Shown in pieces: positions 219 through 33,380 of a stretch of DNA of 64,000 bases. The DNA lies in assembly GCF_000165795.1 (NCBI RefSeq), contig NZ_CM001022.1, positions 248,001 to 312,000 on the forward strand. The letters run 5' to 3'. The notes beneath the pieces were generated by a model, which was given only the letters and a program-made list of their open reading frames with translations, ran no database searches and had not been told where the DNA came from. The position numbers and the translations under genes are program-made. Origin of the DNA: Aminomonas paucivorans DSM 12260. Lineage in GTDB: Bacteria > Synergistota > Synergistia > Synergistales > Synergistaceae. Within the stretch, counting starts at the first letter, position 1, and every line of letters begins with the position of its first letter.

Positions 219-1844
219 ATGACGACGAAGCATCGCGGAGGGACGGGAATCGGGCTGCTTGCGGCGGCCCTGTTGCTGTGGACAACCGCGGCCTTCGGGG
301 CCCCCACCACGGCGGATCAGGCCCTCTCGGTCGCCCGGAACTGGGCCGCCGGAGGAGAGCGCCTGGGGGAGAAGACCTTTCCCGGGACCGGGACGGTGGT
401 CTCCTACGGGGACGGCAAGGGGCGGACCCTGTTCCACGTCGTCCGCCTGGGAGCGGGGACGGTGATCCTCCCCGGGGACGACCGGATGGAGCCGATCCTG
501 GCGTTCCTTCCCGAAGGGAGCTACGACGACCGCACGGACAACCCCCTTCGGGCCCTGGTGCGTCGGGACCTGGAGGGGCGATTCGCCGCCCTGGCCGCCG
601 CGCCCGTTTCCCTGAAGGCCTCGGGGGAGGGGCACACGACGAGGTGGCGTCGCCTGGAGTCGGGAGGGCAGGCCAAGGGCGGGGTCGGCGGCGTCTCGGA
701 CGTGCGGGTGGCCCCCCTGGTGGCGGCCCGGTGGAACCAGGAAGGGGCCTTCGACGGCGGCCCCCTCTGCTACAACCTCTACACCCCCGAAAACCTTCCC
801 TGCGGCTGCGTGGCCACCGCCCTGGCCCAGGTGATGTACACCCACCGGCACCCCGCCGAAGGGGTGGGGGCCCGATCCTTCCCCATCTCCGTCCGGGGAG
901 CCGCCCAGACCCGGACCCTTCGGGGAGGGGACGGGTCCGGGGGACCCTACGCCTGGGACGCCATGGTCCCTGTCCCGGGGCAGGGGGTCTTTGAGGCGGC
1001 CTGCCAAGCCATCGGCGCCCTTGTCCACGACGCGGGGGTGGCGTCGAACATGAACTACAACACCCAATCCGAGGGCGGGTCCAACGCCATCGCGATCCAG
1101 GGGGTGGAGCGCCTCGTGGAGGTGTTCCACTTCTCCCAGGTCCGGACGGCCTACTCCGGCGCAAGCCTCACCTCCCTTGCCCCGGAGGCCCGGACCCGCA
1201 TGATCAACCCGAACCTGGACGCCTCCCTCCCCGTGGTGCTGGGCATCTCCGGGAAGTGGCTCTTCTCCGACCGGTACGGACACGCGGTGGTGTGCGACGG
1301 CTACGGCTACGACGGGGGAACCCCCTACCACCACCTGAACCTGGGCTGGGGGGGCAAGGACGACGCCTGGTACAACCTCCCCGACGTGGACCTGACCGTC
1401 TACCCCTACTCCGCCTTGGAGAGCTGCGGCTACAACATCTACCCCCAGGGGACCGGGGAGATCGTGAGCGGCCGGGTCCTGGACGGGGCGGGCAACCCCG
1501 TGGCGGGGGCCACCGTGACCGCTTCGGGGGGAGGCGAGACCTTCACGGACGTCACCGACCCCAAGGGCATCTTCGCCCTGGCCCGGATCCCCTCGGGGGT
1601 CACCTACACCCTCACCTCCTCCGCCGGGGGGGCCCGCACCGTGACGGTGGGGGTCTCCGACAGCGCCACCTCCGTCACCGGGAACGTCTGGGGGGTCACC
1701 CTGGGGACGGGGCCCACCGCCTCCCCGGACCCCACGGGGGGAAACACCAAGAGCAGCGGAGGGGGCGGCTGTTCCGGCCTGGACCTCCCGACTCTGGCTG
1801 CGCTGGCGCTGGCGCCCCTGGTGGCCCTGCGGGGGCGGGCCTAA
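219..1844 (+). CDS. Secreted C10-family (streptopain-like) cysteine protease with Synergist-CTERM tail
   Basis: 541 residues, ATG preceded by AAGGAGAGG. Residues 1-28 form a signal peptide ending TAAFGA. The catalytic Cys is C197 in the motif CVATALAQVMYTH, the catalytic His is H355 in GHAVVCDGYGY, and a NLGWGG motif follows, as in the C10/SpeB family. A carboxypeptidase-regulatory-like beta domain (GRVLDGAGNPVAGATV) lies after the protease part. The C-terminus is SSGGGGCSGL, a hydrophobic helix and basic residues, a Synergist-CTERM sorting signal. It probably degrades proteins at the cell surface to feed amino acid fermentation; the substrate is not known. It lies beside another secreted protease with the same tail. 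Confidence 0.85.
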   Translation: MTTKHRGGTGIGLLAAALLLWTTAAFGAPTTADQALSVARNWAAGGERLGEKTFPGTGTVVSYGDGKGRTLFHVVRLGAGTVILPGDDRMEPILAFLPEGSYDDRTDNPLRALVRRDLEGRFAALAAAPVSLKASGEGHTTRWRRLESGGQAKGGVGGVSDVRVAPLVAARWNQEGAFDGGPLCYNLYTPENLPCGCVATALAQVMYTHRHPAEGVGARSFPISVRGAAQTRTLRGGDGSGGPYAWDAMVPVPGQGVFEAACQAIGALVHDAGVASNMNYNTQSEGGSNAIAIQGVERLVEVFHFSQVRTAYSGASLTSLAPEARTRMINPNLDASLPVVLGISGKWLFSDRYGHAVVCDGYGYDGGTPYHHLNLGWGGKDDAWYNLPDVDLTVYPYSALESCGYNIYPQGTGEIVSGRVLDGAGNPVAGATVTASGGGETFTDVTDPKGIFALARIPSGVTYTLTSSAGGARTVTVGVSDSATSVTGNVWGVTLGTGPTASPDPTGGNTKSSGGGGCSGLDLPTLAALALAPLVALRGRA

Positions 1845-1908
1845 GGGGGACGCATCGGCGCCATTGATCCGTGGTCTAGCCTGAAGGATGTTTTTGTCCT
1901 CTGTGTCG

Positions 1909-1937
1909 TGGTGACGTGGCGTGGTATCTGCTATAGT
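1909..1937 (+). promoter_or_regulatory. Possible promoter for the propeptide-like/subtilase pair
   Basis: TATAGT at 1932-1937 is preceded by TGC, an extended -10 arrangement, in an otherwise GC-rich gap. A matching -35 is poor (TGGTGA at 1909-1914, 17-base spacer). It sits 85 bases before the next start codon. Confidence 0.3.
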
Positions 1938-2022
1938 GATCTCGCTGCAAGGCTAAGGCGATGTCCCGTTGGGAAGGAATGTCGACGCATCGGTGCTTCG
2001 CGAAGAGGAGGGAGACGATGAG

Positions 2023-2454
2023 ATGATCCACAAGAGCCTGTTCTGGCTGTTCGCGCTGGTCCTGTTCCTTCCCTGCGGCTCCGTGGGGGCTCAGGCTTCC
2101 GCTCCTGCGTCCTCAGGGGCGGCACCGGGGGAGTATCTGGTGGTTTTTCCGCCCAGCAGCTTTGTGTTGGCATTTCAGGAGGGGGCGAGGGACGTGGCCC
2201 TTAAGGCCCTGGTCTCCACCCAGAAGGAGTATCTGCGAGATCAGTACCAGTTGGAGGTGGTGACGGTCTACGATGCCATCGGCCGCACCAACGGCAAGGG
2301 GATGTACCACGTGCGCAGCTCCAAGGGGGCAACCAGCGAGGAGGAATCCCGCAAGCTCCTGGAGCGCATGGGAAAGGACAGCAACCTGGAGTCCGTGTCC
2401 CCCAACCGGCAGGAAGGGCTGGCGGAGCCCAAGGGGGCCGTGAAGAAGCCCTAG
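2023..2454 (+). CDS. Small secreted protein resembling a stand-alone subtilisin propeptide (I9-like)
   Basis: 143 residues from the ATG at 2023, chosen because GAGGAGGGAG lies just upstream and the product then starts directly with a signal peptide (MIHKSLFWLFALVLF, cleavage near GAQA). The mature part begins PGEYLVVF and continues with a helix-rich stretch, VVTVYDAIGRTNGKGMYHVRSS and LESVSPNRQ. This order matches the propeptide of the subtilase encoded next (EGEALVVL, VAVASGRNIVFLRSS, VLGAQPN). By inference it is a free inhibitor or folding helper for the neighbouring protease. It has no Synergist-CTERM tail, so it should be released to the periplasm or outside. No catalytic residues are visible. 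Confidence 0.6.
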   Translation: MIHKSLFWLFALVLFLPCGSVGAQASAPASSGAAPGEYLVVFPPSSFVLAFQEGARDVALKALVSTQKEYLRDQYQLEVVTVYDAIGRTNGKGMYHVRSSKGATSEEESRKLLERMGKDSNLESVSPNRQEGLAEPKGAVKKP

Positions 2455-2529
2455 GTCTCCCGGGTCCGAAGCGCCACGCAACGATCCGTTCCCCCTTGGG
2501 GGAACCCAAACGAACCGGAGGTGAAGCCT

Positions 2530-4044
2530 GTGAAGAAATGGGTAGCCTGGTTGGCTGTGTGTGCCCTGTTGATGGCGGGGACGGCCTTTGCGGAAGCCAC
2601 ACGGATCCGCGCTGTGGGGGCGTCCCGATATGTGGAGGGAGAGGCTTTGGTGGTGCTCCAGGGGCCGGATCGGACCCTTGCGGCTCAGAACGTCTCGTCC
2701 TTCCGCAGCGCTCTCACGCGACAGGCTGATACCTTGGCCGCCTCGGTGGGGGCGAAGACGGCGGCGACCTACGCCGCCGTGGCGGTCGCCTCGGGGCGGA
2801 ACATCGTGTTCCTTCGGTCCTCCACCCGGACCACGGAGCAGCTTCTGGCGGACCTGAAGGCCAATCCCGCCGTCCTGGGGGCCCAGCCCAACTACCTGGC
2901 CCGGGCCTTCAAGACCCCCAACGACCCGTCCTACTCCCAGCAGTGGGGGCTTCCCAAGATCAACGCCCCCACCGCCTGGGACACCGTGACGGGACCCCTG
3001 GCGGGGGCGGATCCGGTGTATGTGGCGGTGATCGACACGGGGATCGACTACAACCACCCGGACCTGGCGGGCAACATGGGCCGGGACAAGGACAACCTCT
3101 ACGGCAAGCGGTTCTACAACAACGGCACCGTGGGAACGGACCCCATGGACGTGGACGATCACGGGAGCCATGTGGCGGGGATCATCGGCGCGGTGGGGAA
3201 CAACGACACGGGGGTCTGCGGGGTGAACTGGGCGGTGAAGCTCCTGGCGGTGAACGTATTCTCCGAATTCGGGCCAGGGGATTATCGCGCCTACAACACG
3301 GACACCATCGCGGGGATCGACTATATCCTGGCCCAGAAGGCCCGGGGGCTCAACGTCCGGGTGGCCAACATGTCCCTGGGAGGATGGAATACCCCTCCCG
3401 TCGGGGTGGACGCCTACGGTACCGCAATCCAGGCCATGAGCGACGCGGGGATCCTGGTGGCCATCGCGGCGGGCAACGAGTACCAGAACATCGACAGCCC
3501 CGGAGGTCCCGGGTCGGATCCCAGCGACCCCACGGCGGACTACCGGGGGCAGCGCCCCTACCCGGCGTGCTACCGGTACACCAACACCCTCACGGTGGGG
3601 GCCACGGATTCTGGTGATGTCAAGTCCGTCTTCTCCAACTACAGCCCCAACTGGGTGGATCTGGCCGCTCCGGGGACCGGGATTTACAGCACTCTCCCCG
3701 TGTCCAAGGGGAGCTATGGCAACATGAGCGGTACCTCCATGGCCACGCCCTTCGTGGCGGGGGCGTCGGCTCTCCTCATGGCTGCCCAGCCCACTCGGAG
3801 TACCACGGAGATCCGCACCATGATCCTGACATCGGGGAACACGGTAGGCGGCACCTTCTGGAAGAACGGACGGCTGGACGTGGCCAATTCCATGGGGGCC
3901 ACCCCGCCCACGCCCACGGGCGCGGGCACCGCGACCCCCACCCGGGCGCCCTCCGGCGGCGGGGGCGGCGGCTGCTCCGGTCTGGGCTTTGCCCCCTTGG
4001 CGGTGCTGATCCTGCTGCCCCTGCTGGCCCTGAAGCGGCGGTAG
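2530..4044 (+). CDS. S8 subtilisin-like serine protease with Synergist-CTERM tail
   Basis: 504 residues. The GTG at 2530 is preferred over the GTG at 2521 because GGAGGTGA (2517-2524) then lies at normal spacing. A signal peptide (to about TAFA), an I9-type propeptide (about residues 35-125) and the S8 domain follow. The triad is D169 (VIDTGIDYNHPDL), H211 (DDHGSHVAGI) and S403 (GTSMATPFVAG). A Pro/Thr linker leads to SGGGGGGCSGL, a hydrophobic helix and KRR, a Synergist-CTERM anchor. It is likely a surface protease supplying peptides. The preceding small gene resembles its own propeptide. Confidence 0.9.
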   Translation: MKKWVAWLAVCALLMAGTAFAEATRIRAVGASRYVEGEALVVLQGPDRTLAAQNVSSFRSALTRQADTLAASVGAKTAATYAAVAVASGRNIVFLRSSTRTTEQLLADLKANPAVLGAQPNYLARAFKTPNDPSYSQQWGLPKINAPTAWDTVTGPLAGADPVYVAVIDTGIDYNHPDLAGNMGRDKDNLYGKRFYNNGTVGTDPMDVDDHGSHVAGIIGAVGNNDTGVCGVNWAVKLLAVNVFSEFGPGDYRAYNTDTIAGIDYILAQKARGLNVRVANMSLGGWNTPPVGVDAYGTAIQAMSDAGILVAIAAGNEYQNIDSPGGPGSDPSDPTADYRGQRPYPACYRYTNTLTVGATDSGDVKSVFSNYSPNWVDLAAPGTGIYSTLPVSKGSYGNMSGTSMATPFVAGASALLMAAQPTRSTTEIRTMILTSGNTVGGTFWKNGRLDVANSMGATPPTPTGAGTATPTRAPSGGGGGGCSGLGFAPLAVLILLPLLALKRR

Positions 4045-4094
4045 CCCTTCGGCGACTCCAGGGAAGGAGCGCGAAAGGCGCAAGGTCAAGGAAC

Positions 4095-4128
4095 AAGGAG
4101 GGCCTCCCCGGCCGGGGAGGCCCTCCTT
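4095..4128. terminator. Bidirectional terminator between convergent genes
   Basis: A perfect 15-bp stem (AAGGAGGGCCTCCCC at 4095-4109 with 4114-4128) with a 4-base loop lies between the subtilase stop and the end of the minus-strand FmdE gene. It ends in TTT on the plus strand and can serve both directions. Confidence 0.8.
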
Positions 4129-4184
4129 TGTGGTTCCGGATCCTGCCGCTCCCGGTTCGGGGGCGGCTCTGCGCCTCGGGGGCG

Positions 4185-4757
4185 TCAGCGGAAGGTGCCG
4201 TCCGTGACCCCCTGACATCCCCGGCATCGGTCGCCGTGGGCGGGGGGGTAGGCCTCCCCGCAGATCGGGCAGACCACCGGGGGCGTCTTGTCCCGGGGCT
4301 TGAAGACTTGGGGGTCCACCTGCACGGGGCGATGGTCCAGGATGTCGTACCCCGCCCGGCAGATCTCCCCCAGGATGGCCTCCAGGCTCTGGTCCTTTTT
4401 CGGGGTGAGCTTGAAGAACCAGTCGTGGATGACCGGGAAGTTCTTGAGCTTTTCCGTGCTCAGGGAGATGCGGACCCCTTTCCCCGTCCTCTTGTCGTAG
4501 AACACCGCCGCGAACCGCCCCGTGTCCACCACCTTCAGCCAGTGGTTTCCCACGGTGCAGGGGGTCAGAAGCTGGATCGCGTCGGTGAGGCACTTGCGGG
4601 TCTCGCAGATCACGTCCATCTCGATGCCCGGGGGAAGAAGCTCCCAGGCCAGATTGACCATCTGGAGCCCCAGGACGCCCCCCGGCGCCATCTTCCCGTG
4701 GAATTGCTCCAACTCCTTCAGGAAGTCCTCGTAGGAGGCGAAACGCCCGTAGTTCAT
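4185..4757 (-). CDS. FmdE-family protein with C-terminal zinc ribbon
   Basis: 190 residues, ATG at 4757 overlapping the formate dehydrogenase stop in an ATGA arrangement, so translation is coupled. The body (FASYEDFLKELEQFHG, APGGVLGLQMVNLAW, CLTDAIQLLTPCTVGN) is typical of the FmdE domain, named after a subunit of formylmethanofuran dehydrogenase. The tail CPICGEAYPPAHGDRCRGC is a four-Cys zinc ribbon. Methanofuran chemistry is not expected here. As the last gene of a molybdenum/tungsten formate dehydrogenase operon it probably helps handle the cofactor or metal, which is inference from context. Confidence 0.75.
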   Translation of the reverse strand: MNYGRFASYEDFLKELEQFHGKMAPGGVLGLQMVNLAWELLPPGIEMDVICETRKCLTDAIQLLTPCTVGNHWLKVVDTGRFAAVFYDKRTGKGVRISLSTEKLKNFPVIHDWFFKLTPKKDQSLEAILGEICRAGYDILDHRPVQVDPQVFKPRDKTPPVVCPICGEAYPPAHGDRCRGCQGVTDGTFR

Positions 4758-7504
4758 ACCGCGATCTTCTCGATCTTGACAGCGCAGGCCTTGTAGGAGG
4801 GCGTGAGGGTATCGGGATCGAAGGTCTTCACGTCCCCGCTCAGGAGGCGGTTGGAGTTGGTCTCCCAGAAGTGGAAGGTCATCCAGACCATGCCTCGGGG
4901 CATGCGCTTGGTGACGTTGGCCTTGATGCGCACCTCTCCCCGGCGGGACTTCACCCGGATGGTCTCCCCGGTGACGATCCCCAGGGCCTGGGCGTCCTCC
5001 ACGGAGATGTCCGCCCGCTCTTCGGGCATCCGCTCGTTGAGCCCCTTGGCCCGCCCCGTCTGGGTGCGGGAGTGGTAGTGGGTCAGGCGGCGTCCCGTGC
5101 TGAGGACGAAGGGGAACTCCTCGTCGGGCTGCTCGGCGCCGGGCACCCAGTCGATGGCTTGGAAGTTGCCCTTCCCCCGGGAGAAGTTCCCGTCCACGTG
5201 GAGGATGGGCGTTCCGGGATGGTCCTCGGAGGGGCAGGGCCACTGGATGCCGCCGATGGCGTCCAGGCGGTGGAACTTGATGCCCCCGAAGGCGGGGCAC
5301 AGGAGGGAGATCTCGTTGTCCCACAGTTCCTGGCCGCTGTCGGAGGGCCATTGGTGGCCGAAGTGCTTGGCCGTCTCCTTGAAGATCCACCAGTTGGGCT
5401 TGGCGTCTCCCGGAGCTTCCTTGACCTTGCGCACCCGGCTGATGCGGCGCTCCGTGTTGCTGTACGTGCCCTCGTCCTCGCACCAGGAGGCGGAGGGGAG
5501 GATGACGTCGGCGAAGGGGGTGGTCTCGTTCTGGAAGATGTCCTGGACCACCAGGAACTCCGCCGAGTTGAGGCAGTGGGCGATGTGCTCCACGTCCGGT
5601 TCCGTGGCCACCAGGTTTTCCCCGAAGATCCAGAAGGCCTTGAGCCGGTCCGTGGTGAGGCCGTTGGTCATCTCGGCGATCTTGAGGCCCGGCTTGGAGG
5701 GCAGGCTCTCCACCCCCCAGAAGCGGGCGAACTTCTCGTTGATCTCCGGCTTGTCCACGTTCTGGTAGCCGCAGTACATGTTGGGCAGAGCCCCCATGTC
5801 ACAGGCCCCCTGCACGTTGTTCTGTCCCCGCATGGGGTTGACGCCGCCGCCCTCCACCCCCATGTTGCCCAGGAGCATCTGGAGGTTGGCCAGGGACATG
5901 ACGTTCCGCTTCCCCGTGTTGTGTTCCGTGATGCCCAGGGTGTAGATGACCATGGCGGGTTTCACCGTCCCGAGCATCCGGGCGATCTCCACGATGGTCT
6001 CCTCGGGCACGCCGCTGATCTCCGCTGCCCGCTTGGGGGGGTACTCCGCCACCTTCGCGGCCAGGGCCTCGAAGTTCTCGCACTTCTCCTCCACGAACTT
6101 CTTGTCGTAGAGTTCCTCCTGGATCAGCACGTGCATGATTCCGTTGAGGAAGGCGATGTCCGTCCCCACCCGAAGCTGGGCGAAGATGTCCGCGTAGTCC
6201 GCAAGCTCCTGCTTGCGGGGGTCCACCACGATGAGTTTGGTCCCCGTCTTGACCCCGTTCTTCAGGTACGTGGCCGCCACGGGATGGGCCTCCGTCATGT
6301 TGGTGCCGATGCAGAAGAGGAGCTTCGCCTTGGCGTACTCCCCGATGGTGTTGGTCATGCCGCCCGCTCCGAAACTGGACAGTAGCCCCGCTACTGTAGG
6401 AGCGTGTCAGACCCGGGCACAGTGGTCTATGTTGTTCGTGTTGAAGACCATGCGGAAGAGTTTCTGCATGCTGTAGGAATCCTCGTTGATGCTGCGCGCG
6501 CAGCTCACCCCTCCGACCGCATCCGGGCCGTGCTCTTCGATCACCTCCTTGAATCGGGATGCCACCAGGCCGAGGGCTTCGTCCCAGCTGGCTTCACGGA
6601 AGGTGTCTTCCGGGCTTTTCTTTTCCCCTTTCCGGATTCGGATGAGGGGTTTGGTGAGGCGTTCGTCGGAGTAGATGAAGTCGTAGCCGAAGCGCCCCTT
6701 GACGCACAGACGTCCCCGGTTGGGCATGCCGTCGGGGGTCCCGGTGACCCGGGTGATCTGGTCGCCCTTCATGTGGAGGTCCAGCTGGCAGCCCACCCCG
6801 CAGTAGGGGCAGGTGGTGCGGACGACCTGGGTCTGCCACGACCGTCCCTGGCCGATGGTTTTTTTCTCCACCAGGGCGCCCACGGGACAGGCCTGGACGC
6901 ACTGGCCGCAGAAGACGCAGTCCGAATCCTCCAGCTTCACCCCCACCGGCGGGTTGATGGCGGTGTGGATGCCCCGGTGCTGGAAGTCGATGGCGTGGTA
7001 GCCCGACTGCCAGTCGCAGGACCGGACGCACCGGCCGCAGAGGATGCACTTGTTCATGTCCCGGACGTAGAAGGGGTTCGTGTCGTCCAGGGGGATGTCC
7101 GTGTTCACGTCGCCCTCGTCCCGCAGGGGGGACTTTTCGATGCCCAGCTCGTAGGCCAGATCCTGCAGGGTGCAGCGACCGTTGGATTCACAGGAGAAGC
7201 AGTCCAGGGGATGGCGGATGAGGATCATTTCCACCACCGCCTTGCGGGTGGCGATGGCCTTGGGGCTGTGGGTGAGCACCCCCATGCCGTCGGTGAGGGG
7301 AGTGGTGCAGGCCGGCAGAAGCTTGGGGTTGTTCTCCACCTCCACGAGACAGACGCGGCAGGCGCCGCTGGGTGGCAGGGCCGGGTGGTCGCACAGGGAC
7401 GGGATGTGGATGCCGTTGGCTCGTGCGGCCTGCATGATGGTCATGCCCGGTTCTGCGGTGATGGTTTTCCCGTTGATTCTTGCTGTGATGGGATTGGAAC
7501 CCAT
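4754..7504 (-). CDS. fdhA: Selenocysteine formate dehydrogenase, alpha subunit with N-terminal ferredoxin domains (TGA at 6407-6409 read as Sec)
   Basis: 916 residues when the in-frame TGA (residue 366) is read as selenocysteine; without this the gene looks like two ORFs. The context HCARV-U-HAPTVAGL matches the Sec-His active site of formate dehydrogenases, and a SECIS-like hairpin follows. N-terminal Fe-S ligands: [2Fe-2S] C38/C49/C52/C66; His-type cluster H98/C102/C105/C111; two [4Fe-4S] C153-C163 and C196-C206. The molybdopterin domain starts with its own cluster (C232, C235, C239, C267) and ends with a dinucleotide-binding domain (VLSTGRRLTHYHSRTQTG). It oxidises formate or reduces CO2 at a bis-MGD Mo/W centre in the cytoplasm. 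RBS AAAGGAG. It lies downstream of a Moco-riboswitch-like leader and MoeA-like gene, without dedicated NuoEF partners. Confidence 0.92.
6379..6409 (-). promoter_or_regulatory. Bacterial SECIS element and Sec UGA codon of the first formate dehydrogenase
   Basis: The UGA is at 6409-6407 on the minus strand. Nine bases downstream comes an 8-bp stem, ACAGTAGC paired with GCTACTGT, closed by a GGG loop (6397-6379). Position, stem size and a G in the apical loop fit the SelB-binding hairpin of bacterial fdh genes. Confidence 0.8.
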
Positions 7505-7534
7505 GAACCAAAACTCCTTTCCTTGGAAGATTCC

Positions 7535-8554
7535 TCAACTGCGCGCGGAAAAGGCGCATCCAGGGTAAGAGCACGCGTCGCAGCTCCTGCACAATCCCCC
7601 CCTTCCCCAACGTCGGACCTCTTCTCCCGTGGGAGGAGTGCCCGCATAGAGACGATCCAGAAGGACGTCCAGGGACGTCCGTTGTGCAAAAACCGCCGAG
7701 GCGGGAACGCCTACGAGGAATGCCTCCCCTTTCTGGGCAAGCATCAGGTTGGCCCCCGGAATCAGGGGGACCCTTCGGAAAACCACCCGGTCGCAGAGGG
7801 AGCGGATGGCCCGAGGTGTCTGGTCGTCCGCATCCACGCTCATGCCTCCGGTGCACAGGACGATCCGGGCCCCCTTGTCCAGCCACGCGGCGACGGCCCG
7901 GGCGATCTCGGAGGCGTCGTCGGGGCAGAGGGTGTGTCCCATCAGGGGAGCGCCGTAGGGTACGAGTTTGGTTTGCAGCTTGGGCAGGAAGGCGTCCTGC
8001 ACCAGCCCTTCGTAGATCTCCCGCCCCGTGGTGACCAGGGCGGTGGGGAAGGGGTTCCAGGGCAGAACGGAAAGGGGGGCCACCCCCAGCACGCGGTCCA
8101 CCTGTTCTCTTTGGACGGCCAGGGGGCCGATGCGGAAGGCCGCCGTCAGGGTCCCGAGGCTCACGGCGGTCCGGTTGGCCCGGGTGGTGAAGATCCAGTC
8201 GGGGTCCTGGTTGATGAAGTCCACGTCCTCGTCCCGAAAGTGCAGCAGGCCGGGACGGGTCGCCGTGAGGGTGCATTTCCCCTCCTCAGGTCCGCGAAGC
8301 TCCAGCCCTTCCCCTTGGACCCTTCGTCCCAGGAGGAGCGCTGCCTCGTCCTCGTGGACCTCCTCCGGGTCCAGCATCAGAAAGCGGATGTGGGACTTGC
8401 CCATGCGCAGGAGGAGGGGCACGTCCTCCTGCGCGATGCGGTGCCCCCTGCGGAAGCGGGCGCCCTTGAATCCCCCCACGGGATCGATGAGGGTCAAGTC
8501 ATGGGAGAGGATTCTGCCGACGGCCTGCTCGACCGGGAGGGTTTCAGTCTTCAC
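7535..8554 (-). CDS. MoeA/MoaB-like molybdopterin-binding protein with Cys-rich C-terminus
   Basis: 339 residues from a GTG at 8554. The N-terminal part (LPVEQAVGRILSHDLTLIDP, GARFRRGHRIAQEDVPLLLRMG) resembles the MoeA N-terminal region. The second half holds a MoaB/Mog-type molybdopterin-binding domain (ALVTTGREIYEG, CTGGMSVDADDQTPRAIR, PLIPGANLMLA). The last 20 residues carry four Cys in the pattern CX2CX2CX4C (LCRSCDACSYPGC), unusual for MoeA and suggesting a metal or Fe-S site. It probably acts in molybdenum/tungsten cofactor insertion for the adjacent formate dehydrogenase, 30 bases downstream in the same operon. The RBS at this GTG is weak. Confidence 0.75.
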   Translation of the reverse strand: MKTETLPVEQAVGRILSHDLTLIDPVGGFKGARFRRGHRIAQEDVPLLLRMGKSHIRFLMLDPEEVHEDEAALLLGRRVQGEGLELRGPEEGKCTLTATRPGLLHFRDEDVDFINQDPDWIFTTRANRTAVSLGTLTAAFRIGPLAVQREQVDRVLGVAPLSVLPWNPFPTALVTTGREIYEGLVQDAFLPKLQTKLVPYGAPLMGHTLCPDDASEIARAVAAWLDKGARIVLCTGGMSVDADDQTPRAIRSLCDRVVFRRVPLIPGANLMLAQKGEAFLVGVPASAVFAQRTSLDVLLDRLYAGTPPTGEEVRRWGRGGLCRSCDACSYPGCAFSARS

Positions 8555-8583
8555 GTGTCTTCACCGCGATTCCGCCTTTCCAT

Positions 8584-8622
8584 AAAAAAAGGGACCGTGC
8601 CCCATGCAAGGAGCACAGTCCC
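8584..8622 (-). terminator. Intrinsic terminator/attenuator in the MoeA-like leader
   Basis: On the minus strand, GGGACTGTGC pairs with GCACGGTCCC (10 bp with one G-U), followed directly by seven T residues (plus-strand A-run 8584-8590). It lies between the putative aptamer and the start codon, as expected for a riboswitch expression platform. Confidence 0.75.
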
Positions 8623-8624
8623 CC

Positions 8625-8755
8625 TACGTCAAGACGCAGGTGTGCGGCTCTCCTTGCCAAACAAGGGAGGCGTGCCCGTTTCCAGACACACCCTATCGGC
8701 CGCACACCACGGACACGGGGCCCGACAGGCAATGCGGCTCGGAGGCGCTCTATGG
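8625..8755 (-). promoter_or_regulatory. Putative molybdenum-cofactor (Moco) riboswitch aptamer
   Basis: A structured minus-strand leader upstream of the MoeA-like gene and formate dehydrogenase. It contains CCTCCGAGCCGCATTGCC near its 5' side and TGGAAACGGGCACGCCTCCC followed by a GTTTGGCAAGGAG segment near its 3' side. From memory these blocks resemble the Moco RNA motif. Stable pairing (for example GTGTGCGGC with GCCGCACAC) closes the fold, and a strong terminator follows. Ligand identity rests on motif recall plus gene context, so it needs a covariance-model match. Confidence 0.6.
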
Positions 8756-9404
8756 GGTCTCCCCCTGGGGGGAGACTTGGGGTCTTCGGTCGAGTACAGG
8801 AAGTTCCCCGCCGCCGAGGAGTTTTCTCGCGAACCGTCCTCCGCCGGATGTCCGCCGCAGAACGGAAAGCCGCCGCGCCCCGGGGGCACCAACCCCGGAG
8901 TCTGCCTCGGTGCTTCGGGAGTGCAGGCTGCGCATCCTCCCCCCTGTGGTTCTCGCGGAGGATAGGCCGCAGGCCATTCACAACACAGAGCCATCTTCAT
9001 TCAGACTTGGTGGGCGTGTCAAGCATATCTGTGAAATATGTCACTGGAGGCCGGTTTCCTGGGGGAGAGGAAACCTTCGGGATCGGGTTGCGCCAAACCC
9101 CGATCGAGAGGGGGATCGTGGGTCGAGTGAAGGAGTCCCGTCATGGGGAACGGGATTGCCTCGGAGGTTTCCGATGGGCCCAAGATGTCCTTTTTCGTCT
9201 CGGGATTCGGAAAAGCGAGAGCTGGTGCCAAGAAGCACAAACCGGAGGTCCTGTGTGCGACGGGCCTGGCCGGGGAGAAACCGGATCGGACCGAGAGGAT
9301 CCTGTCCCCTGTTTTGTGCAGAGCAGCGGAAAGGGCGGGGCCTTTTTTCTTTCGCGGAGAACCGGAGGTTTCTTGTGCAAGAACAGGGGGGGCTTTCTTT
9401 GCCC
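8756..9404. other. Intergenic region without a recognised gene
   Basis: No frame here has a convincing start, RBS or domain. Several hairpins are visible, including TCCCGT/ACGGGA near 9146-9165 and a short AAAGG/CCTTT stem followed by TTTTTT near 9340-9356. Short phrases such as ACCGGAGGT recur at 9241 and 9361. It may hold the promoter of the minus-strand riboswitch transcript and possibly a small RNA, but I recognise none. Confidence 0.4.
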
Positions 9405-9433
9405 TTGCCCCTTCCGGGAAATTTGTGCATAAT
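9405..9433 (+). promoter_or_regulatory. Candidate promoter of the formate dehydrogenase module
   Basis: TTGCCC (9405-9410) and CATAAT (9428-9433) are separated by 17 bases and stand in a local AT-rich patch, the only one between the two divergent operons. It would give a 5' leader of about 420 bases before the SnoaL-like gene. Confidence 0.4.
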
Positions 9434-9859
9434 ATATCCAAATGTCGTGGCCGCACGTTCCTCTTGCCCCGAGCTCTTTTCGGGCGAGCCGGCCTACGTT
9501 CCCCCATTGCCGACGCCGTATCCCCGCTTTCCGTCCTTTTTCGAGCGCGAAAGGGAGAGGGTTCGTTTGCATATCTTGTGAATTTTAGGTCGACCGGGTC
9601 CCGTGGGGGACCCACCCTGGGCTGGGACAGCCCTGGCAGCGTGTGCAGGATCCACGGGGATCCTGGGGCGAAGGAGGGCCTTCGCCGGAGTTCTCAAATC
9701 CTTTTTCTCATTGCTCGGCATTCCAACAAGGGTCGTTACTCCCCAAACGGGGAGGGAGGTCTGTTCCCCGGGAGCGGTTCCCCTGGGAACAGGCTTTGGC
9801 GTGTTTTGTCCTGCCTGCGGACTTCAAGGGAGTGCGCAGGAGAAGATGGGAGGTCTGTC
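9434..9859 (+). other. Long structured leader upstream of the SnoaL-like gene
   Basis: No coding gene is supported. Hairpins include GGCGAAGG/CCTTCGCC (9667-9686) with a T-rich tract 16 bases later, and CTGTTCCC/GGGAACAG (9761-9792) enclosing a second small stem. It could be an attenuator or regulatory leader; no known riboswitch class was recognised. Confidence 0.35.
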
Positions 9860-10228
9860 ATGAAGGTTCAGGAGGAGATTCTCGGCTGCTTCGACGCATG
9901 GAACCGGGCCCTGCAGAGCGGGGATCCCGGGGAGGTGGCGAAGCTGTACGCGGCGGACGCCATTCTGTTGCCCACGGTGTCCAACGCGGTGCGGCACAAT
10001 TTCGCGGAGATTCGGGACTACTTCGCCCATTTCATGGAAAGCCATCCCAGTGGGCGGATCGACGAACCCAACGTGCGGGTCTACGGGGACCTGGCCATCA
10101 ACTCGGGGGTGTACACCTTCTCCTTCCCCGATAAGCCCCCCATCCAGGGGCGCTTCACCTTCGTCTACCGGAAGAACGGACAGCGCTGGGAGATCGTGGA
10201 GCACCATTCCTCCCGGATGCCGGAGTAA
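9860..10228 (+). CDS. SnoaL/CaMKII-association-like (DUF4440-type) small protein
   Basis: 122 residues from ATG 9860, preceded by GGGAGGT. An open frame extends far upstream, but that part has no domain and poor codon bias, so the internal ATG is used. The sequence ILGCFDAWNRALQSGDPGEVAKLYAADAILLPTVSN, then DYFAHFMESHPSG and GRFTFVYRKNGQRWEIVEHHSSRMPE, is the cystatin-like NTF2 fold of the SnoaL/DUF4440 group. Members bind small molecules or act as isomerases; the substrate is unknown. It is the first gene before the formate dehydrogenase module, 180 bases away. Confidence 0.75.
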   Translation: MKVQEEILGCFDAWNRALQSGDPGEVAKLYAADAILLPTVSNAVRHNFAEIRDYFAHFMESHPSGRIDEPNVRVYGDLAINSGVYTFSFPDKPPIQGRFTFVYRKNGQRWEIVEHHSSRMPE

Positions 10229-10407
10229 CGCCTCCGGGGGCGTCCTCTCTCGGAGGGGCGGCGGATTTGCGAGGGGTTCTTCCCCCTTCCCGAGGTTTTC
10301 GGGGTGGTCCGGAGGGCCGGATCTAAGGGGGTGCAGTTGCGGGAATGGGGTATCGGGTGTTTCTCCTCGGGGGTTTGGAGAAACGTAGGGCGATGGGAGG
10401 TATGGGA

Positions 10408-10875
10408 ATGCTGGAAAGAGAAGAGGTCGTTTCCAGGACGCGGGAGATCGTGGCTCCCTGGAAGGGCCGCAAGGGCGGGTTGATCCCCATCCTGCAGGGG
10501 GCCCAGAACGCCTTCGGCTATCTGCCGGCAGAGGCGCTCCAGACGATTTCCGAGGAGCTGACGGTGCCGCTTGCGGAGATCTACGGGGTGGTGACGTTCT
10601 ACGCCCAGTTCCACCTCAAGCCCCGGGGTCGTCACATCATCCGGGTGTGCCGGGGGACGGCGTGCCACGTCCGGGGGAGCCTGAAGCTGCTTCAGACCGT
10701 CAAGGAGTCCCTGAAGGTGGAGGAGAACGGCACCACCGAAGACCTGCGCTATACCCTGGAGCCGGTGGCCTGCATCGGGGCGTGCGGTCTGGCGCCGGTC
10801 ATCATGGTGGATTCGGACACCCACGGCCGACTGGTTCCGGAGAAGCTCAAGGAAATCCTGGACCATTACGAGTAA
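10408..10875 (+). CDS. NuoE/HndA-like [2Fe-2S] thioredoxin-fold subunit
   Basis: 155 residues; ATG 10408 is chosen over 10402 because GGGAGG (10395-10400) then lies 7 bases away. The N-terminal helical part (ILQGAQNAFGYLPAEAL) and IYGVVTFYAQFHLKPRG are typical NuoE. The four cluster Cys are in CRGTACHVRG and CIGACGLAPV. In the HndABCD/FdhABC type complexes this subunit passes electrons between NAD(P)-linked flavin and ferredoxin clusters. First of three subunits directly preceding a formate dehydrogenase catalytic gene. Confidence 0.88.
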   Translation: MLEREEVVSRTREIVAPWKGRKGGLIPILQGAQNAFGYLPAEALQTISEELTVPLAEIYGVVTFYAQFHLKPRGRHIIRVCRGTACHVRGSLKLLQTVKESLKVEENGTTEDLRYTLEPVACIGACGLAPVIMVDSDTHGRLVPEKLKEILDHYE

Positions 10876-10906
10876 CCCAATCACGAGTTCGGAGGGGGAC
10901 ACCACG

Positions 10907-11278
10907 GTGGCGAAGATCACGAGCCTCGAGGATCTGCGGAAGATCAAAGAGCACGCGAAGGACCAGACGTCCGCGAGGTCCGAGGGAAAGACCCGCATCA
11001 TCATCGGCCTGGGGACCTGCGGCATCGCCGCGGGGGCGCGGGCGGTGATGGAGGCGGTGATGGAGGAGCTGAACAAGAGGGGACTCAAGGACGTCTCCGT
11101 GGAGGGGACCGGGTGCATCGGCATGTGCCAGCAGGAGCCTCTCCTGGACGTGATCCGTCCCGGGGAGCCCCGGATCACCTACGGCCGCGTGACGGCCCAG
11201 GACGTGCCCCGGATCGTTGCGGACCACCTGGTGAACGGCCGGATCGTGCAGGACAAGCTCATCGGCCGGGCCGAGTAG
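10907..11278 (+). CDS. HndB-like [2Fe-2S] ferredoxin-domain subunit
   Basis: 123 residues from GTG 10907 with GGAGGGGG upstream. The sequence begins ITSLEDLRKIKEHAKDQ and contains GTCGIAAGARAVMEA and TGCIGMCQQEPLLDV, the thioredoxin-like ferredoxin fold of NADP-reducing hydrogenase subunit HndB. It should carry one [2Fe-2S] cluster bound by Cys in TCG and GCIGMC. It sits between the NuoE- and NuoF-like genes with short gaps, and has a paralogue in the hydrogenase operon at 19003. Confidence 0.85.
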   Translation: MAKITSLEDLRKIKEHAKDQTSARSEGKTRIIIGLGTCGIAAGARAVMEAVMEELNKRGLKDVSVEGTGCIGMCQQEPLLDVIRPGEPRITYGRVTAQDVPRIVADHLVNGRIVQDKLIGRAE

Positions 11279-11293
11279 GAGGACGAGAAGATC

Positions 11294-13087
11294 ATGCCGA
11301 CATACCGGAGTCACGTACTGGTCTGCGGAGGCACGGGCTGCGTCTCCAGCGGCAGCGCCAAGCTTCAGGAGGCCCTGCAGAAGGAGCTGGGCAAGCAGGG
11401 TCTGGACAAAGAGATTCTCCTGGTCCAGACGGGCTGTCACGGGATGTGCGAGGCCGGGCCCATCATGGTGGTGTACCCCGAGGGGACCTTCTACACCCAC
11501 GTGAAGCCCGAGGACGCCGCGGAGATCGTGGAGGAGCACCTGCTCAAGGGGCGGGTGGTCCAGCGGCTTCTGCACAAGGAGGACCTCACCGCCGAGGCGG
11601 TGGCCCACTACAAGGAGCTGCCCTTCTACTCCAAGCAGATGCGCATCACCCTGCGCAACTGCGGCTACATCAACCCGGACAACATCGACGAGTACATCGG
11701 CCGGGACGGCTACCAGGGGCTGGCCAAGGTGCTCCAGGATCTTTCCCGGGACGACGTGATCAACGAGATGAAGACCTCCGGCCTGCGGGGGCGGGGCGGT
11801 GGCGGCTTCCCCACGGGGATGAAGTGGGAGTTCTGCAAGAAGTCCCCGGGGGACAAGAAGTTCGTCATCTGCAACGCCGACGAAGGGGACCCCGGGGCCT
11901 TCATGGACCGCTCCCTGCTGGAGGGGGACCCCCACGCCATCCTTGAGGGCATGGCCATCGGGGCCTACGCCATGGGGGCCGACGAGGGCTACATCTACTG
12001 CCGGGCGGAGTACCCCCTGGCCATCAAGCGGCTGCACCAGGCCATCGCCCAGGCGGAGGAATACGGCCTGCTGGGCAAGAACATCATGGGCACGGACTTC
12101 TCCTTCGAGATCCACGTGAAGGAGGGGGCGGGGGCCTTCGTCTGCGGCGAGGAGACCGCCCTCATGGCCTCCATCGAGGGGCAGCGGGGCATGCCCCGTC
12201 CCCGGCCGCCCTTCCCCGCCAACAAGGGGCTGTGGGAAAAGCCTTCCAACATCAACAACGTGGAGACCTGGGCCAACGTGGCACAGATCATCCTCCACGG
12301 GGGAGCCTGGTATGCCTCCGTGGGCACCGAGAAGTCCAAGGGCACCAAAGTCTTCGCCCTCACGGGGAAGGTGAAGAACACCGGGCTGGTGGAGGTCCCC
12401 ATGGGCACCACCATCCGGGAGGTGGTCTTCGAGATCGGCGGCGGCATCCTGAACGACAAGAAGTTCAAGGCTGTGCAGATCGGCGGACCCTCCGGGGGCT
12501 GCCTCACGGAGGAGCACCTGGACCTGCCCATCAGCTACGAGTCCCTCACCGCCGCCGGGGCCATCATGGGTTCCGGGGGACTGGTGGTGGTGGACGAGGA
12601 CACCTGCATGGTGGACGTGGCCAAGTTTTTCCTGGAGTTCACCCAGGCGGAGTCCTGCGGCAAGTGCGTCCCTTGCCGGGAGGGCACCAAGAAGATGCTG
12701 GACATCCTGACCCGGATCACCGAAGGCAAGGGGCAGGAGGGGGACATCGAAAAGCTCCAGTACCTGGGCACCCAGATCAAGGACGCGTCCCTCTGCGGCC
12801 TGGGGCAGACCGCCCCGAACCCGGTGCTCACCACCATCCGCTACTTCCGGCACGAGTACGAGGCCCACATCAAGGACAAGAAGTGTCCCGCCGGAGCCTG
12901 CGTCGCCCTGACGAGCTTCGTCATCGACCCCGCCAAGTGCATCGGCTGCACCAAGTGCGCCCGGGTCTGTCCCGTGAACGCCATCACCGGGGAGATCAAG
13001 AAGCCCCACGTGATCGACGCGGAGAAGTGTGTCAAGTGTGGTGCCTGCGCGGAGGCCTGTCCCGTGAAGGCTATTTCCCGACGCTAA
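11294..13087 (+). CDS. NuoF/HndC-like NAD(P)H- and FMN-binding Fe-S subunit
   Basis: 597 residues. An N-terminal ferredoxin-like domain (VCGGTGCVSSGS, TGCHGMCEAGP) precedes the NuoF core: FMN/NAD site GLRGRGGGGFPTGMKW and NADEGDPGAFMDRS, GAGAFVCGEETAL, then the [4Fe-4S] ligands SCGKCVPCREGT. Two C-terminal [4Fe-4S] motifs, CIGCTKCARVCP and CVKCGACAEACP, make it the long HndC/HydB form. It is likely the flavin-bifurcating subunit exchanging electrons between NAD(P)H, ferredoxin and the formate dehydrogenase encoded next. The same length as its hydrogenase-operon paralogue at 19426 (597 residues). Confidence 0.9.
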   Translation: MPTYRSHVLVCGGTGCVSSGSAKLQEALQKELGKQGLDKEILLVQTGCHGMCEAGPIMVVYPEGTFYTHVKPEDAAEIVEEHLLKGRVVQRLLHKEDLTAEAVAHYKELPFYSKQMRITLRNCGYINPDNIDEYIGRDGYQGLAKVLQDLSRDDVINEMKTSGLRGRGGGGFPTGMKWEFCKKSPGDKKFVICNADEGDPGAFMDRSLLEGDPHAILEGMAIGAYAMGADEGYIYCRAEYPLAIKRLHQAIAQAEEYGLLGKNIMGTDFSFEIHVKEGAGAFVCGEETALMASIEGQRGMPRPRPPFPANKGLWEKPSNINNVETWANVAQIILHGGAWYASVGTEKSKGTKVFALTGKVKNTGLVEVPMGTTIREVVFEIGGGILNDKKFKAVQIGGPSGGCLTEEHLDLPISYESLTAAGAIMGSGGLVVVDEDTCMVDVAKFFLEFTQAESCGKCVPCREGTKKMLDILTRITEGKGQEGDIEKLQYLGTQIKDASLCGLGQTAPNPVLTTIRYFRHEYEAHIKDKKCPAGACVALTSFVIDPAKCIGCTKCARVCPVNAITGEIKKPHVIDAEKCVKCGACAEACPVKAISRR

Positions 13088-13115
13088 AGCGCTAAAGAGA
13101 GAGGGTTGAGAGGGT

Positions 13116-15824
13116 ATGCAAGGAATCGAAGCAATCATCAACGGTCGAACGATCGTCGCGGAACCGGGGATGACGATCCTTCAGGCTGCCAGGGCCCACG
13201 GGATCCACATCCCGACCCTGTGCGACCATCCGGTACTCAAGGCCGTGGGGGCGTGCCGAGTGTGCCTGGTGGAGGTGGAGAAGAACCCGAAGCTGCTGAC
13301 CGCCTGTTCCACTCCCCTGAGCCCGGGGATGGTGGTGCACACCCATTCGCCCCGGGTCCTGGAGGCCCGTCGGGCGGTGGTGGAGCTTCTCCTGATCCGT
13401 CATCCCCTGGACTGCTTCAGCTGTTCCAGCAACGGGAAGTGCGAGCTTCAGGACGTGGCCTACGAGCTGGGGATCCAGAAGTCTCCCTTCGCGGAGGAGG
13501 GGGACACCTGCACGAAGTACGCCCTGGAGGACGCCAACCCGTTCTACGTCCGGGACATGAACAAGTGCATCCTCTGCGGTCGGTGCATCCGGGCCTGCGA
13601 CAGCCTGGCCCAGTACCACGCCATCGACTTCCAGAACCGGGGGATCAAGACCATGGTCCAGCCTCCCGTGGGGGTCGACCTGGAGCACTCGGACTGCACC
13701 TTCTGCGGCCAGTGCGTCCAGGTGTGCCCGGTGGGGGCGCTTTCGGAAAAGACCGCCCGGGGGCTGGGTCGGCCCTGGGAGATGCGGTCCGTGAAGACCA
13801 CCTGTTCCTACTGCGGGGTGGGGTGTGAACTCCACATCCAGGTGAACGCCAAGACCGGAAAGATCGCCAACGTCACCACGGACTACGAGAGCAAAAGCGC
13901 CCTGAACGAGGGGCGGAGCTGCGTGAAGGGGCGATTCGCCTGGCAGTTCGTGCACAGCGAGGAGCGCCTCACCAGGCCGCTGATCCGGGAGAACGGCGTC
14001 CTGCGCGAGGCCACCTGGGAAGAGGCCCTCAACGCGGTGGTGGGAGGGCTGGGGCACATCCGGGAGCAGCACGGCCCGGATACCATCGGTTTCTTCTCCT
14101 CCGCCCGGTGCACCAACGAGGAGAACTACCTGCTCCAGAGGCTGGCGAGGGAGGTGATCGGCACAAACAACGTGGACCATTGTGCCCATCTCTGACACAG
14201 CGCTACCGTGAAGGGTCTCGGTGAGACCCTCGGAAGCGGCGCCATGACCAACGATTTCCGGTCCATCCGGAAGGCGGACGTGCTGTTCGTCATCGGTTCC
14301 AACACCACGGAGGCCCACCCGGTCATCGGCTCCTGGATCAAGGAGCGTCGCCGGGCGGGGGCGAAGCTCATCGTCTGCGATCCCCGGAAGATCGAGCTGG
14401 CGGAGTACGCCGACGTGTACCTGCGGCAGAAGAGCGGCACCGACGTGGCCCTGGTGAACGGGCTGATGCACGTCATCCTGCGGGACAACCTGCAGGACGA
14501 GGCCTTCCTCGCCCAGCGGGTGGAGAACTTCGAGGCACTGAAGGCCCAGGTGGCTTCCTACACCCCCGAGGTGGTCTCGGAGATCACCGGGGTGGCCCCG
14601 GAGCTGATCGAAGAGGCAGCCCGGATCTACGCGAAGGGGCCCAACTCGGCGATCTTCTACACCATGGGGATCACCCAGCACGTCACGGGAACCAACAACG
14701 TGCGGAGCATGGCCAACCTGGCCCTTCTGTGCGGCATGCTGGGGCGCCCGGGCACGGGGGTGAACCCCCTTCGGGGGCAGAACAACGTGCAGGGGGCCTG
14801 CGACATGGGCTGTCTGCCCGACGTGTACTCGGGCTACCAGAAGGTGGCGGACCCCCAGTCCCGGGAGAAGATGGGCAAACTCTGGGGGGCGGAACTTCCC
14901 GCCGGGCCGGGGATGACCCTGGTGCGGATGATGGAGGCGGCGGGAAGCGGCACCTTGAAAGGGCTGTTCATCATGGGGGAGAACCCCATGGTGACGGACC
15001 CCGATACGAACCACGTGCGCCACAGCCTGGAGAAGCTGGACCTCCTGGTGGTGCAGGACATCTTCCTCACCGAGACGGCGCAGATGGCGGACGTGGTCCT
15101 GCCCGCCGCCTGCTGGGGGGAGAAGGACGGCACCTTCACCAACACCGCCCGTACGGTCCAGCGGGTCCGCAAGGCGGTGGAGTCTCCGGGGGAGGCCCGG
15201 GGGGACTGGGAGATCCTGCAGGACATCGCCGTGCGCCTGGGGGCGCCCTGGAACTTCCGCAGCGCCTCGGAGGTGTTCGACGATCTGGCCCGGGTCACCC
15301 CGAGCTACGGCGGCATGAGCTACCGCCGCCTGGAGGAGAAGGGGCTGGCGTGGCCCTGCCCCACCCCGGAGCATCCGGGAACGCCGATCCTGCACACGGA
15401 GAAGTTCCCCCGTCAGGGCGGGAAAGCCACCTTCTCCCCCTGCGAGTGGAAGGCTCCCCACGAGTGGCCCGACGAGGAGTACCCGTACCTGGCCACCACG
15501 GGACGTCTTCTGTACCACTACCATTCCGGGAGCATGACCCGACGGAGCGCCCCGGGAGAGTTCGTCAAGGAGCTGTACGTGGAGGTGCACCCCGCCGACG
15601 CGGCGGCCCTGTGCCTGGAGGAGGGGCAGCTGGTCCGGGTCACGTCCCGCCGGGGCAGCGTGGAGGGCAAGGCAAAGGTCACCGACCGGGTCCCCCCGAA
15701 GATGGTCTTCCTGCCCTTCCACTTCGGCGAGGCTTCGGCCAACGTCCTCACCGCCGCGGTGATCGACCCGGATTCGGAGACTCCGGGTTACAAGGTCAGC
15801 GCGGTTCGGGTGGAAAAGGTCTGA
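13116..15824 (+). CDS. fdhA: Selenocysteine formate dehydrogenase, catalytic subunit of a NuoEF-linked complex (TGA at 14193-14195 read as Sec)
   Basis: 902 residues with Sec at 360 in HCAHL-U-HSATVKGL. The architecture equals that of the 4754-7504 gene: N-terminal [2Fe-2S], His-ligated cluster (RHPLDCFSC), two [4Fe-4S] (CILCGRCIRACD, CTFCGQCVQVCP), then the molybdopterin oxidoreductase (CSYCGVGCE) and its C-terminal dinucleotide-binding domain (LATTGRLLYHYHSGSMT). It lies 28 bases after the NuoF-like subunit and before a FocA channel, so it probably forms an NAD(P)- and ferredoxin-linked formate dehydrogenase. Conventional calling would split it at the TGA. Confidence 0.93.
14193..14230 (+). 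promoter_or_regulatory. Bacterial SECIS element and Sec UGA codon of the second formate dehydrogenase
   Basis: After the UGA (14193-14195) and a 16-base spacer comes an 8-bp stem AGGGTCTC (14212-14219) paired with GAGACCCT (14223-14230), loop GGT. The overall placement fits a bSECIS, though the spacer is a few bases longer than in the first gene. Confidence 0.75.
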
Positions 15825-15841
15825 CGGAACCGAGGAGGGGG

Positions 15842-15870
15842 GAGCGGGGCGCTGCGCCCCCTCCCTCCCC
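15842..15870 (+). promoter_or_regulatory. Hairpin between formate dehydrogenase and focA
   Basis: GGGGCG and CGCCCC form a compact stem inside a longer GGAG...CTCC pairing. No T-run follows, so it may slow RNA decay or partly attenuate rather than terminate. Confidence 0.35.
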
Positions 15871-15900
15871 ATCCAAACCATAGGAGGGAGATCAAAAGTC

Positions 15901-16728
15901 ATGAATTTCAAGACCCCTGCGGAGCTGGCCAAGTCCGGCTGCGCCGTCGCCAAGGCCAAGTGCGCCTGGTCGGTCCCCCAGATGCTCATCATGGGCATCC
16001 TGGCGGGGGCCTACATCGCCTTCGGAGGCTTTCTGAACACCGTGGTCACCCAGGACCTGGCGAAGTACGCCGGGGTGGGGGTGACGAAGTTCCTGGGCGG
16101 GGCGGTCTTCTCCGTGGGACTCATGTTGGTGGTCATCGGCGGAGCGGAGCTGTTCACGGGGAACTGCCTCATGCCCATGGGGGTCATGGCGGGCTGCGCC
16201 ACCTTCAGCGGGATGCTGCGCAACTGGTTCTGGGTGTACACCGCCAACCTCATCGGCTCCCTCCTGGTGGCCCTGCTGGTCCACCTGGGAGGCATGGACA
16301 CCGGCGCGGTGGGGGTCAACGCCCTGAAGATCGCCTCCGCCAAGATGAACCTTTCCATGGATCAGGCCTTCTTCCGGGGCATCCTCTGCAACTGGCTGGT
16401 GGTGATGGCGGTGTGGATGAGCATGGCCGCCCAGGACATCGTCGGCAAGGTTTTCTCCATCTTCTTCCCCATCATGGCCTTCGTCGCCTCCGGTTTCGAA
16501 CACAGCATCGCCAACATGTACTTCATGGCCCTGGGGATCTTTGCCAAGGGCGACGCCGCGGTGGTGGCCGCCGCGGAGCTGGCCCCGGAGAAGCTGGCCT
16601 CCGTCGGTCTGGGGGGCTACCTGCACAACCTGATCCCCGTCACCCTGGGGAACATGGTGGGAGGCATCCTCTTCGTGGCGGTGGCCTACTACCTGGTCTT
16701 CCAAAAGAACCTGGAAAACATGGAGTAG
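15901..16728 (+). CDS. focA: Formate/nitrite transporter family channel
   Basis: 275 residues, RBS TAGGAGGGAG, ATG 15901. Six predicted membrane segments and the family signatures AELFTGN (residues 82-88) and GFEHSIANMYF (198-208, with the conserved gating His H201) identify a FocA/NirC-type pentameric channel. Next to formate dehydrogenase it most likely moves formate across the inner membrane, in or out depending on flux direction. Followed three bases later by mobA. Confidence 0.9.
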   Translation: MNFKTPAELAKSGCAVAKAKCAWSVPQMLIMGILAGAYIAFGGFLNTVVTQDLAKYAGVGVTKFLGGAVFSVGLMLVVIGGAELFTGNCLMPMGVMAGCATFSGMLRNWFWVYTANLIGSLLVALLVHLGGMDTGAVGVNALKIASAKMNLSMDQAFFRGILCNWLVVMAVWMSMAAQDIVGKVFSIFFPIMAFVASGFEHSIANMYFMALGIFAKGDAAVVAAAELAPEKLASVGLGGYLHNLIPVTLGNMVGGILFVAVAYYLVFQKNLENME

Positions 16729-16730
16729 CC

Positions 16731-33217: not shown

Positions 33218-33380
33218 CACAAGGGCGCGACCTGCGCCCCCATACGTAGGGTCGCGGCGGAGGAAGCCGGTGCAAAGCCGGCACAGCCCCGCTACGGTAA
33301 GGAGGACGACGTGCGGACGATCGCCACGGGGGGACCCCTGGAAGGCCCGCACGGAGGAGGATTCCAAGTCCGGATACTGC
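33218..33380 (+). promoter_or_regulatory. Cobalamin riboswitch
   Basis: The conserved core is GAAGCCGGTGCAAAGCCGGC followed by ACAGCCCCGCTACGGTAAGG (about 33264-33302), the B12-box arrangement, and the closing block AAGTCCGGATACTGC (about 33365-33379). A CCTTCC/GGAAGG hairpin followed by TTTT (about 33403-33427) may be the expression platform. It precedes a B12 receptor and ABC transporter operon and should repress it when cobalamin is plentiful. Confidence 0.9.

Follow-up and report, generated by a model that had tools for sequence, protein, structure and literature searches.

A P3-less riboswitch of the RF01055 class precedes a selenocysteine formate dehydrogenase operon in Aminomonas paucivorans and probably acts as an OFF attenuator

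Within a 64,000-nucleotide stretch of the Aminomonas paucivorans DSM 12260 genome (Synergistota; hereafter, the window) lie two operons encoding selenocysteine (Sec) formate dehydrogenases (FDHs), and one of them follows a minus-strand leader that an earlier note, made from the letters alone, had called Moco-riboswitch-like. This raises the question of whether the leader belongs to that riboswitch class and, if so, which gene it serves, which cofactor it senses, and whether the ligand would switch the operon on or off. The features discussed below are collected in Table 1.

Table 1. Features of the riboswitch locus in the window (positions are those of the whole stretch)
Feature	Position	Strand	Basis or remark
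Perfect palindromic hairpin directly 5′ of the aptamer	8757..8776	−	By sequence
P3-less Moco/Tuco riboswitch aptamer	8650..8744	−	RF01055 match; pairing in 8 leaders
Aptamer P1	8744-8741/8653-8650	−	4/4 pairs invariant in 8 leaders
Aptamer P2	8738-8728/8708-8699	−	RF01055 alignment
Aptamer P4, GAAA loop	8692-8669	−	Compensatory changes in 8 leaders
Antiterminator 5′ strand GCAAGGA, overlapping the P5/P1 3′ strand	8651..8657	−	Complementarity in 8 leaders
P2 mimic GCCGCACACC, complementary to the P2 3′ strand (8708-8699)	8639..8648	−	Shuffles
Small CUUG-loop hairpin between aptamer and terminator	8623..8640	−	RNA folding
Antiterminator 3′ strand UCCUUGC, loop side of the terminator	8606..8612	−	Paired with 8657-8651
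Intrinsic terminator hairpin core	8622-8613/8600-8591	−	10 bp; two-sided changes at 7/10 pairs (8 leaders)
U7 tract of the terminator	8584..8590	−	Sequence
MoeA-like molybdopterin-binding protein, 339 aa	7535..8554	−	PF00994; no MoeA_N match
fdhA, FDH alpha subunit with Sec	4754..7504	−	TIGR01591; in-frame TGA 6409-6407, codon 366
FmdE-like protein, overlapping the fdhA stop	4185..4757	−	PF02663, E = 1e-35
Second fdh operon (NuoE-like, NuoF-like, Sec fdhA2, TGA at codon 360); riboswitch-free	10345..15824	+	

Searching the whole window on both strands with the Rfam covariance model RF01055 gave the significant match that the earlier note had named as its test, at 8744-8650(−), scoring 52.7 bits (gathering score, 36; E = 9.3e-10). 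The structured RNA with Moco-motif-like blocks was likewise borne out by folding: the 176-nt leader lay 5.8 standard deviations below its dinucleotide shuffles (z = −5.8), none of 200 of which reached it. The aptamer has the conserved P1-P2-P4-P5 core, a GNRA loop, and supporting covariation, including two P4 pairs with two-sided changes in an alignment of eight leaders, across which 92.5% of the aptamer and terminator cells were paired. No P3 stem lies between P2 and P4, which are joined by GGCC-GAU-AGGG. Mo/W-type genes (moeA-like, Sec-fdhA, and fmdE-like) follow on the same strand. The note had held that its idea would fall if there were neither a covariance match nor conserved pairing in relatives; the match was found and the pairing is kept. 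The leader RNA truly belongs to the known Mo/W-cofactor riboswitch class RF01055, and it is conserved. A promoter scan found none, and a literature search, short of full reading, returned no report of this class before a formate dehydrogenase in Synergistota. A hairpin of different sequence occupies the position equivalent to that of the 5′ hairpin in five of the eight orthologous leaders. Elsewhere in the window, a cobalamin riboswitch (RF00174, 74.8 bits) lies at 33261-33378(+).

The gene order given in the note, a MoeA-like gene and then a Sec fdhA, also held up. For fdhA we found an FDH alpha subunit, an in-frame TGA (within CARV-U-HAPTV), and Sec machinery in the genome (SelB, 350 bits; tRNA-Sec, 82 bits); the SECIS_3 match reached only 19.7 bits, below its gathering score. 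The first gene of the operon matched PF00994 alone, without MoeA_N, and the MoeA models fell far below their curated cut-offs, short of the MoeA_N plus MoCF_biosynth pair by which we would recognize a MoeA insertase. A structure model built from four sequences (mean pLDDT, 79.6) retrieved MoeA, Cnx1E, and gephyrin E first in a Foldseek search of the PDB (best E = 2e-8), with a TM score of about 0.3. Given that score and the PF00994 match alone, we call the gene MoeA-like and no more. A single-protein scan with its product returned no named relatives. As the note had also claimed, the switch is confined to one of the window's two fdh operons: window 4000-18000 yielded no further RF01055 match at E ≤ 5. 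At window 219-4044(+) are two secreted peptidase-like proteins that by eye have similar glycine-rich, Cys-containing C-terminal tails.

We then asked which gene the switch accompanies. Of 185 phylum genomes, eight encode window-type FdhA (78 to 100% identical, E ≤ 1e-200), the relatives compared being Synergistales/Synergistaceae assemblies. Upstream of it, every one of the eight (the window, G024, G025, G026, G040, G042, G023, and G039) has an RF01055 match that exceeds the cut-off. In G039 only a C-terminal remnant is left of the MoeA-like gene, and it is fdhA that the switch precedes. In G023 the locus occurs twice, at sites about 25 kb from each other on a single contig. One (L085) has the switch before an intact fdhA with a broken moeA-like gene between them; the other (L079) has an intact moeA-like gene, no fdhA, and no RF01055 match at E ≤ 1, with a terminator-like stretch remaining. 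Among moeA-like loci generally, six of the seven orthologue-group loci and none of the 13 in the paralogue group had the motif. Since the switch was kept through loss or breakage of moeA and decayed without fdhA, it follows fdhA; as read from these loci, evolution has retained the switch with fdhA and not with the MoeA-like gene. The second FDH is present in all seven genomes tested that have window-type FdhA (G039 was outside this set), and in five relatives the six stretches that contain it gave no Rfam match, RF01055 included, at the gathering threshold. Outside the phylum, none of nine loci encoding FdhA1 relatives (62 to 65% identical; several with an incomplete upstream flank) had an RF01055 match, in a search that covered L090 to L098 and left out 67 loci (L099 to L165).

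As to the ligand, Regulski 2008 (PMC2408646), in the portions drawn on here, divides the class by P3, ties the P3-less form to the tungsten cofactor (Tuco) via gene context, shows direct binding for neither cofactor, and calls the ligands unstable. RF01055 is present in 92 of the 185 phylum genomes. Six loci pass the cut-off in the A. paucivorans genome, and P3 is absent from all six. One stands before the window operon; the other five precede tupA, a molybdopterin aldehyde oxidoreductase gene, genes for a response regulator and for an ABC-type binding protein, and an ORF with an amino-acid-kinase-like gene behind it. The TupA model NF041772 scored 341 and 175 bits beside a P3-less copy, both below its cut-off of 400, and it is through these sub-cut-off matches that we count tungstate-specific transport (tupA/B or wtpA) as present; the genome also encodes two ModA-like proteins. 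We read 82 loci, not a random sample: the 6 own copies, the 30 best of the phylum search, 5 orthologues, 40 chosen by hand from the results of that search (with unusually long matches deliberately among them), and L085. P3 was absent by eye from 78, an extra stem being seen in L189, L197, L203, and L204. A TupA match lay downstream of 39 of the 82 (tblastn; that of L022 spans a piece of 36 residues), and P3 was absent from all 39. Other P3-less copies precede wtpA (L035), a WtpB-like permease gene (L191), or aldehyde ferredoxin oxidoreductase (AOR) genes (L024 and L198). The P3-bearing copies precede modA/modB genes (L197 and L204), a full MoeA gene (L189), and an aldehyde oxidoreductase gene (L203). 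Aldehyde oxidoreductase genes thus occur downstream of both forms, and one P3-less copy (L166, in G178) breaks the rule by preceding a modA-like gene. Because the window aptamer is P3-less, Tuco is a better guess for its ligand than Moco, by a rule that is correlative in its source. Of the earlier label, the family therefore stands and the ligand probably shifts. Two back-to-back pairs of RF01055 loci on opposite strands were also seen, at G042:C188:5708-6089 and G041:C73:17018-17412.

The 10-bp terminator with seven Ts that the note had described was found, with a stem longer than stated (16 pairs as scanned, 8625-8588). The antiterminator register is common to all eight leaders, with 92.9% of cells paired versus 36 to 60% for slid registers. 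It contains one compensatory pair (C-G to A-U), and a shuffle control for the aligned helix was modest (24/500). Summed over the eight leaders, the duplex energy was −140.6; shuffled partners averaged −89.8, and 0 of 1,000 reached the observed sum. By leader, the shuffle counts per 1,000 were at most 6 in five, 39 in G023, and 374 in G024; an antiterminator that uses the P1 3′ strand and excludes the terminator was found for the eight together and is weaker in the window alone (68/1,000). When the growing transcript was folded, the antiterminator was the best fold before completion of the terminator in G025, G026, G042, G040, and G039. In the wider survey, the aptamer core was parsed in 79 of the 82 loci and the terminator finder was positive in 60 of these 79; it overlooked some visible terminators (e.g., those of L028, L036, and L182) and put those of L038 and L047 in the wrong place. 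Antiterminator complementarity exceeded the shuffle mean in 50 of the 60, and in 17 the number of shuffles reaching it was below 25 in 500; related sequences are tallied separately. The terminator loops of one own-genome copy (L004, C1:728123) and the window (8617-8602) are nearly the same over 14 to 16 nt, a likeness that suggests within-genome copying or a common constraint.

Since P1 needs the same strand as the antiterminator, ligand should favor the terminator. With Tuco bound, P1 would close and occupy 8657-8651, the terminator would form, and transcription would stop; without ligand, 8657-8651 would pair with 8612-8606, the terminator would be delayed, and FDH would be made. The P3-less, Tuco-type switch is thus likely to be an OFF transcription attenuator of the moeA-like–fdhA(Sec)–fmdE-like operon. 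We infer the ligand, this direction, and the physiology set out below as the probable ones; conservation of both alternative pairings, like the class of the RNA, its lack of P3, its terminator, and its linkage to fdhA, is read directly from the sequences.

In the window copy, the same riboswitch could instead work with the opposite sign. Without ligand, the P2 mimic would invade P2 and the terminator would form; ligand would protect P2 and allow read-through. The mimic is a perfect 10-bp complement, equaled by only 5/1,000 shuffles in the window and 18/1,000 in G024 (85/1,000, weaker, in G023), and it dominates the ligand-free ensemble of the 155-nt window RNA before the terminator is complete (0.73, versus 0.20 for the antiterminator). 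Making the enzyme when its cofactor is present would also be the simpler physiology, from which the predicted OFF logic differs. An ON switch nevertheless seems quite improbable: no good ligand-compatible antiterminator was found for it, folds with candidate B2 being 0.8 to 18 kcal worse than folds lacking B2 when P1 and P2 are held, and the mimic is missing from five of the eight leaders, whereas all eight keep the OFF antiterminator register. An ON antiterminator considered in the window, GCACA/UGUGC, was not favored with P1 and P2 held. Because the window antiterminator is weak and the mimic competes with it, OFF control of the window copy rests mainly on the relatives. The full-length window RNA always prefers the terminator on folding, so switching must be kinetic.

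A further alternative has the switch feed back mainly on the MoeA-like insertase, with fdhA as a passenger. The MoeA-like gene is the first of the operon, and Methylorubrum has separate, metal-specific MoeA paralogues for its W- and Mo-FDHs, according to the part of PMC13197769 used here. This reading is very improbable, given that the switch stays before fdhA in G039 and G023, which have a deleted and a broken moeA, respectively, that it decayed at the locus that lost fdhA, and that none of the 13 paralogue-group loci carries it. As for what is sensed, the RNA might respond to Moco, or to both cofactors, with the absence of P3 a feature of the lineage only. The ModA-like proteins would fit, as would the P3-less copies before molybdopterin aldehyde oxidoreductase genes in several genomes and before the modA-like gene at L166, and the source paper, as noted, showed direct binding of neither cofactor. 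We consider it unlikely, because P3-less copies go with tupA, wtpA, and AOR and two of the four P3-bearing copies go with modAB, as in Regulski 2008.

Repression of an enzyme by its own type of cofactor is odd, and OFF control by Tuco makes sense if two FDHs are exchanged. Probably, this FDH would be lowered when the tungsten cofactor is ample and the second FDH left on. A tentative and rather doubtful extension is a metal-isozyme switch, in which high Tuco terminates one Sec-FDH, the Mo form, and the riboswitch-free paralogue, the W form, stays on; assigning molybdenum to the window FDH is a guess. If true, the isozyme switch would be an RNA-level mechanism for the Mo/W exchange of formate dehydrogenases. 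The Tuco branch of the class has so far stood on correlation alone, as far as PMC2408646 was drawn on. In this phylum, P3-less and P3-bearing copies precede tungstate and molybdate transporter genes, respectively, and one P3-less copy tracks a single Sec-FDH through gene losses; these contexts and this tracking make a clean natural set for testing the metal specificity of P3 and RNA-driven Mo/W exchange of FDHs. What the locus probably adds to the known class is a tungsten-type ligand assignment, a defined target gene (fdhA), and an OFF mechanism.

A comparable pair of enzymes is found in Nitratidesulfovibrio vulgaris, which, in the part of PMC13397495 used here, has two Sec-FDHs per cell; with W present, the Sec-Mo enzyme FdhABC3 is lowered and the Sec-W enzyme FdhAB dominates. 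That part names no riboswitch, and in the window organism the exchange is only predicted. The Moco riboswitch of E. coli moaA, as far as described in our sources, shares the class and the P1-based OFF principle; it differs in having P3, in acting on translation with the RBS in P1, and in controlling cofactor synthesis rather than an enzyme. Closest is the P3-lacking group of Regulski 2008, which in the portions used has the same aptamer sequence, P1, P2, P4, P5, and GAAA loop, no P3, a downstream terminator in some published examples, and the Tuco-type gene association. Relative to that group, the window leader comes from a phylum outside those listed in the 2008 abstract, its closest leaders have the P2 mimic and the 5′ hairpin in addition, and it is attached orthologously to one of two Sec-FDH operons.
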